NCBI GenBank assembly: GCA_944390025.1
Contig: CALXOK010000003.1
Span: 1-64,000 of the forward strand
Source of the DNA: an uncultured Spirochaetales bacterium
GTDB taxonomy: Bacteria > Spirochaetota > Spirochaetia > Sphaerochaetales > Sphaerochaetaceae
Length of the DNA: 64,000 nucleotides
Direction of reading: 5' to 3'
Shown: positions 2,289 through 14,011 of the stretch, piece after piece
Layout: each line of letters begins with the position of its first letter
Numbering within the stretch: position 1 is the first letter of the stretch
The notes under the pieces: model-generated
The model's input: the letters and a program-made list of their open reading frames with translations, nothing else
The model's database searches: none
What the model was told of the DNA's origin: nothing
Position numbers and translations under genes: made by a program

Positions 2289-3220
2289 ATCAAGGCCTCC
2301 CTGAGCACTTCGACATTGGACCTCATCAGGTCAACATAAGTCACCCCGCTGTCAAACTGTCTTTTGGAGACATTGTGGCAGGAGGAGAATTCAAGCACCT
2401 GTGCACCTGTTTCATCTGCGATTACCTCACTGAGTGCTGTATTGGAAAGTTCCATATGAAGAATCACAGGAATCTCATCTTCCCTGACCTTGTCAATCAA
2501 GAAGGCAACAGTCTGGATGGCAGGTTCGCTGTGTTCGCTGCATCCGGGGTATGCGGCATACCAGTCAAGTCCGAACTCCGTGACGAAATAAAGCAGTGGG
2601 AAACGGTCCGCGACTATGATTTCCTTTCTCTGTGCATTCCCGACGATACTTTGAAAATCCTTCCTTATTTCCTCAATTCTGCCGGCATAGTCTTCTGCCT
2701 GGCTCAAATACCAGTCACGGTTTTCCTCATCAAGAGAGGAGATGACCTGAGCAAGAGAGCGGATGATAGCAATCTCATTCGAAGGACTTGTCCAGACATG
2801 CTCGTCAAGCACATGATGATGCGCATGCGAATCCTCTTCTTCCTTCTGTGCGACATTCTCATCACTTTCATAAAGGGTGAAAGACGCATTATCAAGGAGG
2901 TTGAAAGTCGTGACAGATTCGTCAAGACTTGAGAGGATTTCTTCAATCCAGGTGTCGCTTGGTCCGCCGTTATAGATAAAGAGGTCACACTCGCTGATTC
3001 TCATCGCATCCTCAATTGACGGCTCATACGAATGGGTGTCGCTTCCGGCAGGAAGGAGCATCGTGACCTCTGCCTTTCCTCCCGTGACAGCGCGAGCCGC
3101 ATCATAGCATGGAAACGATGAAGCTATTATCCTGAGAGAGGAAGAAGAATCCTCCGGTGATGCATCACAGCCGGGAAAAAGAAGCAAGACAGAAGCCAGG
3201 AGCATAATGATTACTCTCAT
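2285..3220 (-). CDS. znuA: zinc-binding lipoprotein of ABC transporter (ZnuA-like)
   Basis: A 311-aa cluster-9 metal-binding protein. The start chosen is the ATG overlapping the zur stop (ATGA) with a GGGGGAAG ribosome-binding site; it gives a short signal peptide with lipobox LFPGC, so the protein should be lipid-anchored. Family features include TDTHSYEPSIEDAMRI-type metal-ligand segments (seen as GSDTHSYEPS), a central acidic, histidine-rich loop SHAHHHVLDEH, and HVWTSPSN. His-rich loops are typical of zinc-specific rather than manganese-specific members. It delivers metal to the permease and ATPase encoded just downstream. Confidence 0.9.
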   Translation of the reverse strand: MRVIIMLLASVLLLFPGCDASPEDSSSSLRIIASSFPCYDAARAVTGGKAEVTMLLPAGSDTHSYEPSIEDAMRISECDLFIYNGGPSDTWIEEILSSLDESVTTFNLLDNASFTLYESDENVAQKEEEDSHAHHHVLDEHVWTSPSNEIAIIRSLAQVISSLDEENRDWYLSQAEDYAGRIEEIRKDFQSIVGNAQRKEIIVADRFPLLYFVTEFGLDWYAAYPGCSEHSEPAIQTVAFLIDKVREDEIPVILHMELSNTALSEVIADETGAQVLEFSSCHNVSKRQFDSGVTYVDLMRSNVEVLREALI

Positions 3221-3582
3221 TTCTTCCCCCTGCACTGAGGGCACAGACAGCTGATCACACTTTCAGGAGAGACAGCCAGCCCGTTTTTCTCCAGAAGATT
3301 CGAGATGTCATTACTGATTTCATCATCAAGATGGATGAAAGCCCCGCACTGCATGCATGTTGCATGCAGATGATGGCAGCCGCCAAGATAAGAGTAATAC
3401 CTTGTTCTTCCGCGGACGCTCATCGAAACAGTACCGTCACTGACAGCCTGCGTCAGGATTCTGTACACAGTCGAAGCACCCGTGCTCTTCATATTGCAGG
3501 CAATCTGGGAAGCTGACAGTGCTACAGGGCTCTTTTTGAGCTCATCCATGACTTCTTTCTTCTGTTTTGTGTCGTATTCCAC
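3217..3582 (-). CDS. zur: Fur-family zinc uptake regulator (Zur-like)
   Basis: A 121-aa Fur-family repressor: winged helix with TVYRILTQAV recognition segment (about residues 36-45), the HHLHATCMQC region with metal-site histidines and first CxxC, and a C-terminal CLCPQC for the structural zinc. The reading frame begins at GTG. The alternative ATG (residue 12, position 3549) has a better ribosome-binding site but would cut the first helix. A 7-1-7 palindrome overlaps its own -10 box, so it probably represses itself and the downstream znuACB genes when zinc is sufficient. Assignment to Zur rather than Fur/PerR/Mur rests on the neighbouring genes. Confidence 0.85.
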   Translation of the reverse strand: MEYDTKQKKEVMDELKKSPVALSASQIACNMKSTGASTVYRILTQAVSDGTVSMSVRGRTRYYSYLGGCHHLHATCMQCGAFIHLDDEISNDISNLLEKNGLAVSPESVISCLCPQCRGKK

Positions 3583-3587
3583 AGAAA

Positions 3588-3620
3588 TGAGAATTATTCT
3601 CAGATTTCAGAAAGTGTCAA
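3588..3620 (-). promoter_or_regulatory. zur promoter with 7-1-7 Fur-family box
   Basis: On the minus strand a consensus -35 TTGACA (3615-3620) is followed after 16 nt by AATAAT (3593-3598). The -10 lies inside TGAGAATAATTCTCA (3588-3602), a perfect 7-1-7 inverted repeat matching the geometry of Fur, Zur and PerR boxes. Binding would occlude the -10. The -10 ends 10 nt before the GTG of zur, leaving almost no 5' leader. The -35 is inside a 16-bp repeat copy and the box overlaps the AbiEii stop codon. Confidence 0.75.
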
Positions 3621-4451
3621 CACTTTAATCTGTTTTCTCAAAGTTTCAATAATCTCTCCATAGCTTATGTCAGATGCATACTGATACTTCCTCTGATATG
3701 CGGTCCACAAAGAACTGATGTGTTCGTCAGAGGCAAGAGTAGAAACTATTTCTGGAATGTTTTGCACCAGATTCACAGTTCCTCTTTTAGTACAGGTTGC
3801 ATTAAATGCATTTTTCAATATGTCAGTATCAAGCTGGTCTTTATACAACAGAAAAAGAGTTCTGATATCGTAGAAATCCCTCATACGGGTATTCAATACT
3901 CCTCTTGATAGGACAGTCTGAATTTTCTCTGCCAATACCGTTTCCAGATTATATGACAACAGGCTGATATAACGGTCTTCCAAAAGCAACTTGTATCGAT
4001 ATTCAACAGGTTGAGGGGTAACAATGTCACCTGTGGAAATATCAATCTTAATTGGTGTAACAAGTTTCCCCATGATGGCATCCATTGCAATTCGTATTCC
4101 AGGGTACTCCATCTCATCCATAATGCTTGAGATATTCTTGATTTCGAACGTTACACCATCTCCAATATCAATTTCCTTGACTTCAGTAATAATTCGTCTT
4201 ACATCTTCCTCTGAGAGATTCAGATTGTTCAGGCTTGTATCAATATCCATTGTGGAACGGAGCGTTACTCCGACCAGCGCCGTTACGAGCACACCTCCTT
4301 TGATGATGAAATTATCCCTGAAGTTTGAAATAGAAACACGCTCAAGCAGACGTTCCATCATATAGATTCTCAGCAGAATCCTTGCATCTGCATTGCTGTC
4401 TTTTGCTAAATTCTTAATACGTCCCTTTACTTGCTCTGGAGTAAGTGGCAT
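3600..4451 (-). CDS. abiEii: AbiEii/AbiGii-family nucleotidyltransferase toxin
   Basis: A 283-aa toxin of the AbiEii family. Nucleotidyltransferase features are FIIKGGVLVTALVG (about residues 47-60) followed by RSTMDIDTSLNNL, the DxD metal motif, and a C-terminal helical domain with LLEDRYISLLSYNLETVLAEKIQ. AbiE systems are type IV toxin-antitoxin modules that cause abortive phage infection; family toxins modify RNA using nucleotides. It starts directly after the AbiEi stop (TAA then ATG) with GGAGG upstream. The last residues, VLTLSEI, are encoded by a 16-bp repeat plus sequence belonging to the zur promoter, so the C-terminus appears to have been completed by the insertion site. Confidence 0.88.
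   Translation of the reverse strand: MPLTPEQVKGRIKNLAKDSNADARILLRIYMMERLLERVSISNFRDNFIIKGGVLVTALVGVTLRSTMDIDTSLNNLNLSEEDVRRIITEVKEIDIGDGVTFEIKNISSIMDEMEYPGIRIAMDAIMGKLVTPIKIDISTGDIVTPQPVEYRYKLLLEDRYISLLSYNLETVLAEKIQTVLSRGVLNTRMRDFYDIRTLFLLYKDQLDTDILKNAFNATCTKRGTVNLVQNIPEIVSTLASDEHISSLWTAYQRKYQYASDISYGEIIETLRKQIKVLTLSEI
3608..3623. repeat. 16-bp direct repeat, copy 1 (zur side)
   Basis: The sequence CAGAAAGTGTCAACAC occurs here and, in the same orientation, at 5105-5120. The two copies bracket the AbiE genes exactly. This copy supplies the -35 hexamer of zur and codes for the last residues of AbiEii. Confidence 0.85.
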
Positions 4452-5036
4452 TTAAAGCAAGACCTCCATATAGCGTCGAATGATATTCTCTATATGAAAA
4501 CTCCTTGAGTATTCCATAAGAAGGTTGAGATTCTTGTCCTTTCGGGCAATATAGGCTTTCATGACAGAGCTGAACTCCTGCCTCTCTATCGAGTTCCGGC
4601 TCCTGATGAGATCACAGATTGTCCTTTCAAGATCATAAACCGGGATATCATTACCAAAGTTATCTTTCACTATTTTCTTGCCGATAGCCAGGAATTCCTT
4701 CTTTACGTAATACACCTTGCACTTTCCATCAGCTTTAATACGATGAGCATTATAACCGCTGTACACAGTAACAGTATGGACAAAAGGTTCTCTGTCAGAC
4801 AGCCCATGATAATAGAATGCCTCATCATGAGAAAATACAGCTTCAGGACATCTCTGACTTATGATAAAGAGCTCATCAATTAGAACATCCTCCTTAGAGT
4901 AGACACCTCTTGCAACTCTCTCAAACCCATTCTCATGAACGAATCTGTAGAATCTGTATTTGGGAATGCCATTCTTTCTGGCCGTTTCTGCTGCGAGATA
5001 ATTATCATTCTGAAACGACATTCTGATTTCACTCAT
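4452..5036 (-). CDS. abiEi: AbiEi-type antitoxin and transcriptional autoregulator
   Basis: A 194-aa antitoxin: an N-terminal winged helix-turn-helix (about residues 12-48, AAETARKNGIPKYRFYRFV then GVYSKEDV) followed by the AbiEi C-terminal domain with FSHDEAFYYHGLSD and VYDLERTICDLIRSR. AbiEi proteins counter AbiEii without stable complex formation and bind inverted repeats in their own promoter. Such inverted repeats are visible at 5048-5089, directly upstream. The gene is first in a two-gene operon with no gap before the toxin. A Shine-Dalgarno-like AGGACGGA precedes the ATG. Confidence 0.88.
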   Translation of the reverse strand: MSEIRMSFQNDNYLAAETARKNGIPKYRFYRFVHENGFERVARGVYSKEDVLIDELFIISQRCPEAVFSHDEAFYYHGLSDREPFVHTVTVYSGYNAHRIKADGKCKVYYVKKEFLAIGKKIVKDNFGNDIPVYDLERTICDLIRSRNSIERQEFSSVMKAYIARKDKNLNLLMEYSRSFHIENIIRRYMEVLL

Positions 5037-5047
5037 TGTTCCGTCCT

Positions 5048-5089
5048 ATTGTGCTTATATTATACATTAAATAAGCACCATAGCACAAT
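5048..5089 (-). promoter_or_regulatory. abiE promoter with inverted-repeat operator
   Basis: On the minus strand a perfect TATAAT lies about 20 nt before the AbiEi start. It is bracketed by an 8-bp inverted repeat GTGCTTAT (5051-5058) and ATAAGCAC (5071-5078); a further half-site reading ATTGTGCT on the minus strand overlaps the -35 region (5082-5089), and ATTGTGCT also occurs at 5048-5055. This matches the known habit of AbiEi to bind paired inverted repeats in its own promoter. Confidence 0.65.
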
Positions 5090-5104
5090 GGTATTTTCAT
5101 CTTC

Positions 5105-5120
5105 CAGAAAGTGTCAACAC
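5105..5120. repeat. 16-bp direct repeat, copy 2 (glpQ side)
   Basis: Identical to 3608-3623. This copy contains the glpQ stop codon (5114-5116). Similarity continues a few bases to the left (TTC versus TTT), suggesting slight divergence since duplication. Confidence 0.85.
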
Positions 5121-5842
5121 CGTCCAGTTTCGTGCAAAACCCTTTCAGGCCAGTTGGTTATTATTCCATCCACGCCCATCTGTATGACATCTTTTATATC
5201 TGTCACCTCATTGACAGTCCATGCGTTGACAGTACGTCCATTGTTGTGAAAGTCATCAACCATCGCCTTTTTCAAATCATGGAAATCAGGATGATAGCAG
5301 TCCACATCCAGCTGCCTCATGATGTGCCCCATGTTGTAAAGGCTCATTGAGGAAAACAGCAGCCCCACCCTTGTCTGGGGATTCATTCTTTTGATCTTGA
5401 TGACGGAAAGCCAGTTGAAGGAAGAATAGATGACATTCTCCTCAAGAGAGTGTCTGCTTACAAGCTCAAGGACCTTCTCCTCGATGTCAGGGTAATACAC
5501 GGGAGCGGTTTTCAGCTCGATGTTTAGAAGCCTGTCCCTGTGACCTTCCATGAAAACCAGAAGCTCTTCAAGGGAAGGAATGGGAGTGAAACCAAAGCGG
5601 TCACTCTGCGTCTTTCCTGCACTCACTGCTTCCAGCTGACATCGTGTCATGTTGAAGACATACTCATCAATGCCGGCAGTACGCATAAGGCTCTCGTCAT
5701 GGACAATCATGACCTCTCCGTCCTTCGAGAGGTGGACATCTGTCTCAATGCCGTCACTTCCCGCCTCTATTGCCTTAGAAAAGGCAAGCATGGTGTTCTC
5801 AGGATATTGTCCGCTAGATCCCCTGTGCGCGAATACTTTCAT
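5114..5842 (-). CDS. glpQ: glycerophosphodiester phosphodiesterase
   Basis: A 242-aa TIM-barrel GDPD: FAHRGSSGQYPENTMLAF at the N-terminus with the catalytic His-Arg, IETDVHLSKDGEVMIVHD with the metal ligands and second histidine, ELKTAP in the middle and WTVNEVTDIKDVIQMGVDGI near the end. It hydrolyses glycerophosphodiesters to sn-glycerol-3-phosphate and an alcohol. There is no signal peptide, so it should be cytoplasmic. A GGAGGAG motif precedes the ATG. The stop codon sits in the 16-bp repeat bounding the AbiE cassette; the protein seems intact, ending at the normal GDPD C-terminus. Confidence 0.92.
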   Translation of the reverse strand: MKVFAHRGSSGQYPENTMLAFSKAIEAGSDGIETDVHLSKDGEVMIVHDESLMRTAGIDEYVFNMTRCQLEAVSAGKTQSDRFGFTPIPSLEELLVFMEGHRDRLLNIELKTAPVYYPDIEEKVLELVSRHSLEENVIYSSFNWLSVIKIKRMNPQTRVGLLFSSMSLYNMGHIMRQLDVDCYHPDFHDLKKAMVDDFHNNGRTVNAWTVNEVTDIKDVIQMGVDGIITNWPERVLHETGRC

Positions 5843-12774: not shown

Positions 12775-13374
12775 TTAATATGCGAATGCAAGACCGACGT
12801 ATGGGACAAGACCAACACCAAATTCTTTTACATCATACTCCAGTCTAGTTCCATAAACACTCATTGATTCTGATGTATAGAAAGGAATATACATTCTTGC
12901 ACCAGCCCTGAGCGCAAGACTGGAAACAATATTGTAAGCGATTCCTATATTTCCCTGAGCTCCAAGCTGTACTCTGGACCATGATGATTTATTAGAATAA
13001 AGGAAATACATACCGGCACCAGCCTCAAGAGCCATCTTCTCATTGAAATCATGCTTGAACTGGAAGGAAAGGTCTCCCTTGAAGGTTGTAGGACCATTTT
13101 CAACATCCTGATAGTCCATATCCCCATTTTTCTGTAAGAACGGGAACTGTAGTCCAAGTCCATAGCCAAGACCAATGCTGTCAGTAAAATAATGGGCACC
13201 AGAAAGTCCTACATCAAAGGCCATAAGCGATGAGTCCACGCCTTCAGAAGAATCTTCATATTTTCTATTCACCCAGTTGATGTCGAATCCAGCCTCAGCG
13301 CCGATGAAACCATCAGCGAACACAGAAGCTGAAACACACAAAAAGATTGAAACAATTAATAGAAGCTTTTTCAT
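12775..13374 (-). CDS. outer-membrane beta-barrel protein, paralogue A
   Basis: A 199-aa protein with a cleavable signal peptide (MKKLLLIVSIFLCVSASVFA, cut before DGFIG) and alternating amphipathic strands ending in an aromatic (YVGLAFAY), the usual C-terminal signal of outer-membrane barrels. SGAHYFTDSIGLGYGLG is nearly identical to a segment in the neighbouring gene (SGAHYFTDSIGVGYGAG), so the two are tandem duplicates. Size suggests an eight-stranded barrel of the OmpX/OmpW/OmpA-N type. Ligand unknown. Confidence 0.82.
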   Translation of the reverse strand: MKKLLLIVSIFLCVSASVFADGFIGAEAGFDINWVNRKYEDSSEGVDSSLMAFDVGLSGAHYFTDSIGLGYGLGLQFPFLQKNGDMDYQDVENGPTTFKGDLSFQFKHDFNEKMALEAGAGMYFLYSNKSSWSRVQLGAQGNIGIAYNIVSSLALRAGARMYIPFYTSESMSVYGTRLEYDVKEFGVGLVPYVGLAFAY

Positions 13375-13444: not shown

Positions 13445-14011
13445 TCAGTAACTATATCCTACAGACATGTACGGCTGGACATCAACTCCTTGGATTTTTA
13501 GATTACTCTCATCATGCATTGTCACAAAAGGAACAAGGAAACGGGCACCTATTCCTAGAGAGATATGTTCTGCAGGAAGAAGCCGGGCTCCGATGTTGCC
13601 CAGAAAACCTGCAATCCACACTTTATCTTCTCCCAGATATTTCTGGTTATCCGCCATAATGTAAGCACCGGCGCCTGCCTCCAAGGCAAGAGAGTTTGTG
13701 AAGTCATGCTTGTACTGAAAAGAAAGGTTCGCATAGACATCCACTTCCTTGTCAGGGACCTTTGAATATGAACTGTCTTCAATTTTCAGTTTCACCGGAA
13801 GACGAAGACCTGCACCATACCCAACACCAATGCTGTCTGTGAAATAATGGGCACCAGAGACTCCGGCATTCAGGGAAATCTCAGCAAAATCAGTACCTTC
13901 AGCCTTCATCCAGGACATGCCGGGTCCCCCATCGATTCCAATCCATCCTCCTGCAAATGCACAAGCAGATACTATTGATATAATCAGCAGGGCTAATAAA
14001 ATCCTTTTCAT
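13445..14011 (-). CDS. outer-membrane beta-barrel protein, paralogue B
   Basis: A 188-aa protein with a signal peptide (MKRILLALLIISIVSACAFA, cut before GGWIG), repeated beta-strand pattern and an aromatic C-terminus (YMSVGYSY). It shares ordered motifs with the next gene: GGPGMSWMKAE, the SGAHYFTDSIG block, SFQYKHDFTNSLALEAGAG, and a late IGARFLVPFV. The two genes lie head to tail with 70 nt between them and probably arose by tandem duplication. A cysteine in the signal region (SACAFA) is not in a convincing lipobox. Confidence 0.82.
   Translation of the reverse strand: MKRILLALLIISIVSACAFAGGWIGIDGGPGMSWMKAEGTDFAEISLNAGVSGAHYFTDSIGVGYGAGLRLPVKLKIEDSSYSKVPDKEVDVYANLSFQYKHDFTNSLALEAGAGAYIMADNQKYLGEDKVWIAGFLGNIGARLLPAEHISLGIGARFLVPFVTMHDESNLKIQGVDVQPYMSVGYSY

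Follow-up and report, generated by a model that had tools for sequence, protein, structure and literature searches.

Probable insertion of a bare AbiE toxin-antitoxin unit between glpQ and zur with duplication of its target in an uncultured spirochaete

Introduction

In an uncultured Spirochaetales bacterium of the Sphaerochaetaceae, the gene pair abiEi-abiEii lies between glpQ and zur, and copies of one 16-bp sequence stand at either end of it. This arrangement raises the question of how a two-gene defence module entered the gap while both neighbouring genes kept their signals. To answer it, we analysed a window of 64,000 nucleotides (contig CALXOK010000003.1, positions 1 to 64,000), the remainder of the same assembly (G000, an 86% complete genome) and related genomes.

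Results

The locus and its predicted functions

The window begins in a zinc-uptake region on the minus strand, where the gene order is glpQ, abiEi, abiEii, zur, znuA, znuC and znuB. The left-hand neighbour glpQ (5114-5842, minus strand) encodes a GDPD family protein (Pfam GDPD, E 5e-46), and zur (3217-3582, minus strand) encodes a Fur family protein (Pfam FUR, E 1e-9); the zinc-uptake genes beyond zur were identified by Pfam (ZnuA, 5e-62; ABC_tran; ABC-3). Between them lie abiEi (4452-5036, minus strand; 194 aa, antitoxin/autorepressor; PADLOC AbiEi, E 7e-65) and abiEii (3600-4451, minus strand; 283 aa, nucleotidyltransferase toxin; Pfam AbiEii, E 6e-38; PADLOC AbiEii, E 5e-98). Both products are clear family members in the order abiEi-abiEii: an AbiEi of the COG5340 type comes first and the DUF1814 nucleotidyltransferase follows it. 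The nucleotidyltransferase motif GG-x15-DID is intact (GGVLVTALVGVTLRSTMDID), as judged by comparing the translation with the motif hG[G/S]-x15-DhD of PMC3985639. The predicted abiE promoter/operator (5037-5091, minus strand) contains an imperfect 21-nt inverted repeat (5043-5086) whose arms, 5043-5063 and 5066-5086, surround a TATAAT; the repeat is kept in G002, L044, L070, L108 and others. It resembles the repeats bound by AbiEi in this family and is thus a predicted AbiEi binding site, and the two genes are predicted to act as a type IV toxin-antitoxin and anti-phage module. A second, distant AbiE pair is located near a contig end of the same genome (G000:C6:58529-59927), with an AbiEii 28% identical.

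The repeat and the junctions

An earlier note on this DNA had described a 16-mer, CAGAAAGTGTCAACAC, at 3608-3623 and 5105-5120; both copies are present, 1497 bp apart, and even with one mismatch allowed the sequence occurs at these two places only in the whole genome. As that note also read, the glpQ-side copy holds the glpQ stop codon (5114-5116) and the zur-side copy holds the zur -35 hexamer TTGACA (3615-3620). In the gene-reading direction the duplicated tract GTGTTGACACTTTCTGAAATCTGAGAATA becomes GTGTTGACACTTTCTG, in which the glpQ stop codon TGA overlaps TTGACA. The zur promoter continues with a 17-nt spacer and ATAATT (3592-3597), followed by a GAGAATAATTCTC palindrome, and the same arrangement is found upstream of zur in congeners. 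The GAGAATTATTCTC palindrome (3589-3601) covers the zur -10 region and shares bases with the abiEii stop codon; it is conserved in congeners and is a probable Zur/Fur-type operator.

The repeat was said to be 16 bp long and to bracket abiEi-abiEii exactly, and each statement holds in part. The exact match does measure 16 bp, but the similarity is not sharply limited to it, as 3595-3623 and 5092-5120 agree at 25 of 29 positions. The 13-nt extension (5092-5104 against 3595-3607) matches at 9 of 13, an agreement that 0.15% of the 13-mers in the window attain, and homology among AbiE loci starts directly past this stretch, which we regard as the decayed continuation of the duplicated target. The zur-side copy is the preserved one: a promoter is needed there, which left the glpQ-side copy as the one that could decay. 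Similarly, the copies do mark both ends of the insertion, but abiEii reads through its own copy and stops at 3600-3602, in the spacer of the zur promoter. At this end the insert stops within abiEii and lacks the final few codons of the native gene, so that the last seven codons and the stop codon (tail ...VLTLSEI) come from duplicated and host DNA. Accordingly, AbiEii ends here in ..KVLTLSEI*, and in relatives in ..SLKVLREKMILE*, ..SLKVLCRKIA* or ..STKSLLGMIQ*. From the comparison with empty sites described below, the inserted unit (3624-5104 between the exact copies) measures about 1470-1480 bp. It consists of abiEi and abiEii alone; no transposase or integrase is visible in it, in agreement with the earlier note as to the integrase, and its ends carry no terminal inverted repeats.

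A first-order Markov sequence would be expected to contain 0.05 exact repeats of at least 16 nt within 6 kb; the window has four, so the length of the repeat alone is not decisive; what decides is that its copies fall at the two ends of an insertion. The three other such repeats are what could be said for a chance repeat next to an unrelated insertion; we give this reading a practically negligible probability, since the repeat marks the two ends of a genuine insertion, extends imperfectly to 29 bp and has replicate cases elsewhere in the genome and in the genus. In the comparison of AbiE loci, the gene ends here share 16 nt, against at most 14 nt in 1500 mismatched pairings; one other locus, L071, gave 26 nt. 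A 17-bp exact repeat elsewhere in the window (13187-13203 and 13842-13858) belongs to two adjacent paralogous outer-membrane-like genes. An assembly artefact is unlikely, because 16 bp is less than the k-mer length that assemblers commonly use and the scar recurs elsewhere.

Empty sites at glpQ-zur in related genomes

Nine genomes carry glpQ-zur without abiE, namely eight of the 15 congeners examined (G001, G012, G009, G011, G008, G014, G015 and G007) and G056 from another genus of the family; the contig of G002 ends before zur. Empty sites of the kind that the earlier note proposed to look for in related genomes therefore exist, and they bear out its description of an insertion footprint left by a two-gene cassette. 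When the insert and one repeat copy were removed, the collapsed window aligned without gaps to G001, G012, G011, G009 and G008 from the glpQ stop codon through the promoter, including TTGACA-17-ATAATT; the restored junction with an intact zur promoter, as anticipated in that note, is thus the arrangement of five empty sites. The comparison is with diverged congeners, about 70% identical at glpQ-zur, in which TTGACA is the only part in common with the 16-mer and the exact 16-mer is absent. The gap-free junction argues that abiE arrived by an insertion with target duplication and that the tract was single in the ancestral arrangement. In G003 and G005 the glpQ-zur gap contains a nitroreductase-like gene that points the other way (L037 of G003, 3433-4215; L038 of G005), so accessory genes have settled in this gap on more than one occasion.

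Direct repeats permit precise excision by recombination, and abiE could on that account be ancestral at glpQ-zur and have been deleted precisely from all congeners. We consider this extremely improbable, since one filled site stands against nine empty ones and the repeat sequence is not found twice in any relative. Moreover, the closest abiE relatives, in G009 (81% DNA identity), G002 (77%) and L044 (79% protein identity), adjoin tRNA-Phe and not glpQ-zur. At the tRNA-Phe site (loci L035, L036 and L044), abiEi of G009 is truncated beside a type I restriction-modification system, and G002 lacks abiEii and has a TnpB-like gene following. A move of abiE from this site to glpQ-zur was considered; the tRNA-Phe and neighbouring peptidase of the site were not found in the 86% complete assembly of G000. 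A search of plasmid and phage collections gave no DNA match to the locus, and a phage or plasmid origin was left unsupported.

Similar scars at other toxin-antitoxin genes of the same genome

With 98.6% of G000 read, exact repeats of at least 13 nt that bracket whole genes and have their copies outside gene cores were listed. Those of at least 16 nt with sharp ends and a complete gene inside were kept, a selection made after the data had been seen; set aside were what is probably a pair of paralogues, a repeat with short spacing on C27 and an array resembling a shufflon. All repeats kept bracket toxin-antitoxin or Fic genes: abiE, DUF4160+XRE, Fic and brnTA. The brnTA pair after ftsH (C12) is flanked by a repeat matching at 151 of 161 bp (94%). 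The DUF4160+XRE/DUF2442 pair (C16, 3654/4560), between a sodium:solute symporter gene and iclR, has a 40-bp repeat at 92.5% with a duplicated terminator hairpin. A weaker case is Fic (C3, 133898/135067), where the 17-bp repeat lies inside a terminator hairpin. At the DUF4160+XRE and Fic sites congeners keep the neighbouring genes without the module; at the brnTA site the ftsH side alone is conserved in congeners, and other sequence follows ftsH. A BLAST scan of all gene intervals of G000 returned mostly paralogue-like repeats; it also picked up the DUF4160 case and one more Fic gene. This second Fic gene (C30; Pfam) has a flanking repeat of 40 bp at 85%.

In a second brnTA (G000:C12:7591-8105), the toxin start and the antitoxin end share TCATTTTCATGGGA (14 bp, 7606/8088) within coding sequence, which may be by chance. 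The array set aside (G000:C1:249814-254429; about 9814-14429 of L175) comprises a tyrosine recombinase gene followed by several short ORFs that end in ..LLRIA/LRIS and carry TGAGACATTACTGG repeats in both orientations; it resembles an invertible cassette array of the shufflon type that would vary a C-terminus.

Target duplication around brnTA in a congener

In the congener G012, brnTA lies between two genes with a 59-bp terminator repeat on both sides. The corresponding site of G001 lacks brnTA and has the 59-bp tract once; it is 92-96% identical to G012 over more than 1.4 kb on each side, and the two flanking alignments overlap by exactly the 59-bp tract. This empty site fixes the duplication to the base, and the case is the cleanest one of target duplication. 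The tract is not the one found at ftsH around brnTA of G000; outside the module, the two brnTA inserts have no conserved ends in common. Because the tracts differ, the insert ends are not conserved and the tract is single in G001, the repeats are made from the target and not carried by the module.

Related genomes have the neighbours of these insertions without the insert (at ftsH, on the ftsH side only), the repeat is single in the empty site (seen at 92-96% identity for brnTA of G012 against G001, and for abiE itself against diverged congeners only), its length varies between events, and mobile-element genes are absent. Across the cases the repeats are unrelated in sequence and measure 17, 16-29, 40, 59 and 161 bp.

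These data bear on the proposal of the earlier note that the 16-mer is a site-specific core or recombination target. In such a reading, the 16-mer would be an att core used by an integrase supplied in trans, and abiE the remnant or cargo of an element at the 3' end of glpQ; an exact repeat that flanks the insert and contains a gene 3' end is indeed what many integrases leave. We judge it very unlikely nonetheless. The 16-mer, which that note proposed to look for beside other cassettes, is absent from all 138 other genomes of the family that were searched and from other AbiE ends; the empty sites have only its TTGACA; the other toxin-antitoxin insertions have unrelated repeats of other lengths, so no attachment core is shared by independent integrations; and the insert consists of two genes alone, with one end inside abiEii.

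A transposase acting in trans might have moved a non-autonomous, MITE-like unit and made a target duplication of at least 16 bp, which would explain a duplication of plausible length around bare cargo. This too is very unlikely: no terminal inverted repeats are present at abiE, the ends are conserved neither with abiE relatives nor between the two brnTA insertions, and the duplication varies from about 17 to 161 bp. Variable length, unrelated sequences, the lack of inverted repeats or a recombinase, and ends that cut into a gene together speak against a transposon or an integrase site. Two further candidates were rejected: an integron cassette, as by eye no GTTRRRY/attC structure is seen at the 16-mer, and a casposon-type duplication, as the insert holds neither cas1 nor inverted repeats.

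Flanking repeats at AbiE loci elsewhere

We surveyed the flanks of 69 AbiE loci (68 from other genomes and that of the window) for repeats of at least 30 bits within 400 bp. Flanking direct repeats were found at 7 of the 69, the window among them. Of 439 control intervals taken from the same contigs and aligned to genes, 12 had such repeats (odds ratio 4.0, p = 0.008); aligning the controls to genes lowered the enrichment relative to controls not so aligned. This gives moderate support to the pattern. A clear example is L071, on a Clostridiaceae contig, where a repeat of about 100 bp or more, with a terminator hairpin in it, stands on both sides of abiE.

Discussion

The insertion, the empty sites, the target duplication and the recurrence at brnTA and DUF4160+XRE are shown by these comparisons. 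We regard it as likely that a stand-alone abiE unit inserted at glpQ-zur and duplicated its target, with no visible transposase or integrase, by a capture or template-switching route. The abiEi-abiEii unit, with its own promoter/operator and almost no flanks, would have entered the gap with duplication of at least 16 bp, and probably about 29 bp, of the target. In this tract the glpQ stop codon overlaps the zur -35 box, so each neighbour would have kept a copy of its own. The duplications vary in sequence and in length (about 17 to 161 bp), which makes it likely that the module was captured at a staggered break or that templates were switched in repair or replication. The enzymology would then be that of a repair or replication error without a transposase, and selection may subsequently have retained the insertions that left both neighbours working. 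Ku (PF02735) was not found in the 86% complete genome G000.

At the abiE target the stop codon overlapped a promoter, where an insertion without duplication would damage a neighbour; this suggests why duplications are seen. Tentatively, and with less than even confidence, we propose that toxin-antitoxin modules as a class move bare and transposase-free, with the 3' ends of genes and transcription terminators as preferred sites, and duplicate a target segment of variable length. If so, each neighbour would thereby have a stop codon, terminator or promoter of its own, and the long target duplications known from insertions of restriction-modification genes would belong to this wider route as one case. 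The abiE locus alone is a modest result; the same transposase-free scar on several toxin-antitoxin types in one genus bears on how such modules move, and as part of this repeated pattern the locus merits a systematic survey.

Insertion with long target duplication has been reported for restriction-modification genes of Helicobacter (Nobusato et al., 2000, Gene 259:99-108, as cited in PMC1643837, PMC3874152 and PMC3031569), and its mechanism is left unresolved in what these three articles say of it. By our analysis the abiE scar matches this description. In both, bare defence or addiction genes without a known mobile element are flanked by direct repeats derived from the target, and the repeats are long, variable and recognised by comparing related genomes. 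The cargo here is different (type IV AbiE, type II BrnTA, DUF4160+XRE and Fic), the host is an uncultured spirochaete, and the abiE duplication, at 16-29 bp, does not reach the order of 100 bp given in those articles.

Toxin-antitoxin pairs also occupy intergenic gaps in Escherichia coli, such as mazEF in relA-mazG and ccdO157 in folA-apaH, by an integration route that is called unelucidated in the relevant part of PMC7167474. Like these, the pairs described here lie between conserved genes whose arrangement is undisturbed where the pair is absent; target duplication goes unmentioned in that part of the article, whereas here it is visible and replicated. AbiE itself has been described as bicistronic abiEi-abiEii with a DUF1814 nucleotidyltransferase bearing GG-x15-DxD and promoter inverted repeats bound by AbiEi (PMC3985639). 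The present unit shares the gene order, the motif and the promoter inverted repeats, and differs in that the C-terminus of AbiEii is replaced by seven codons of duplicated and host DNA and that the abiEii stop codon lies inside the promoter of the next gene.
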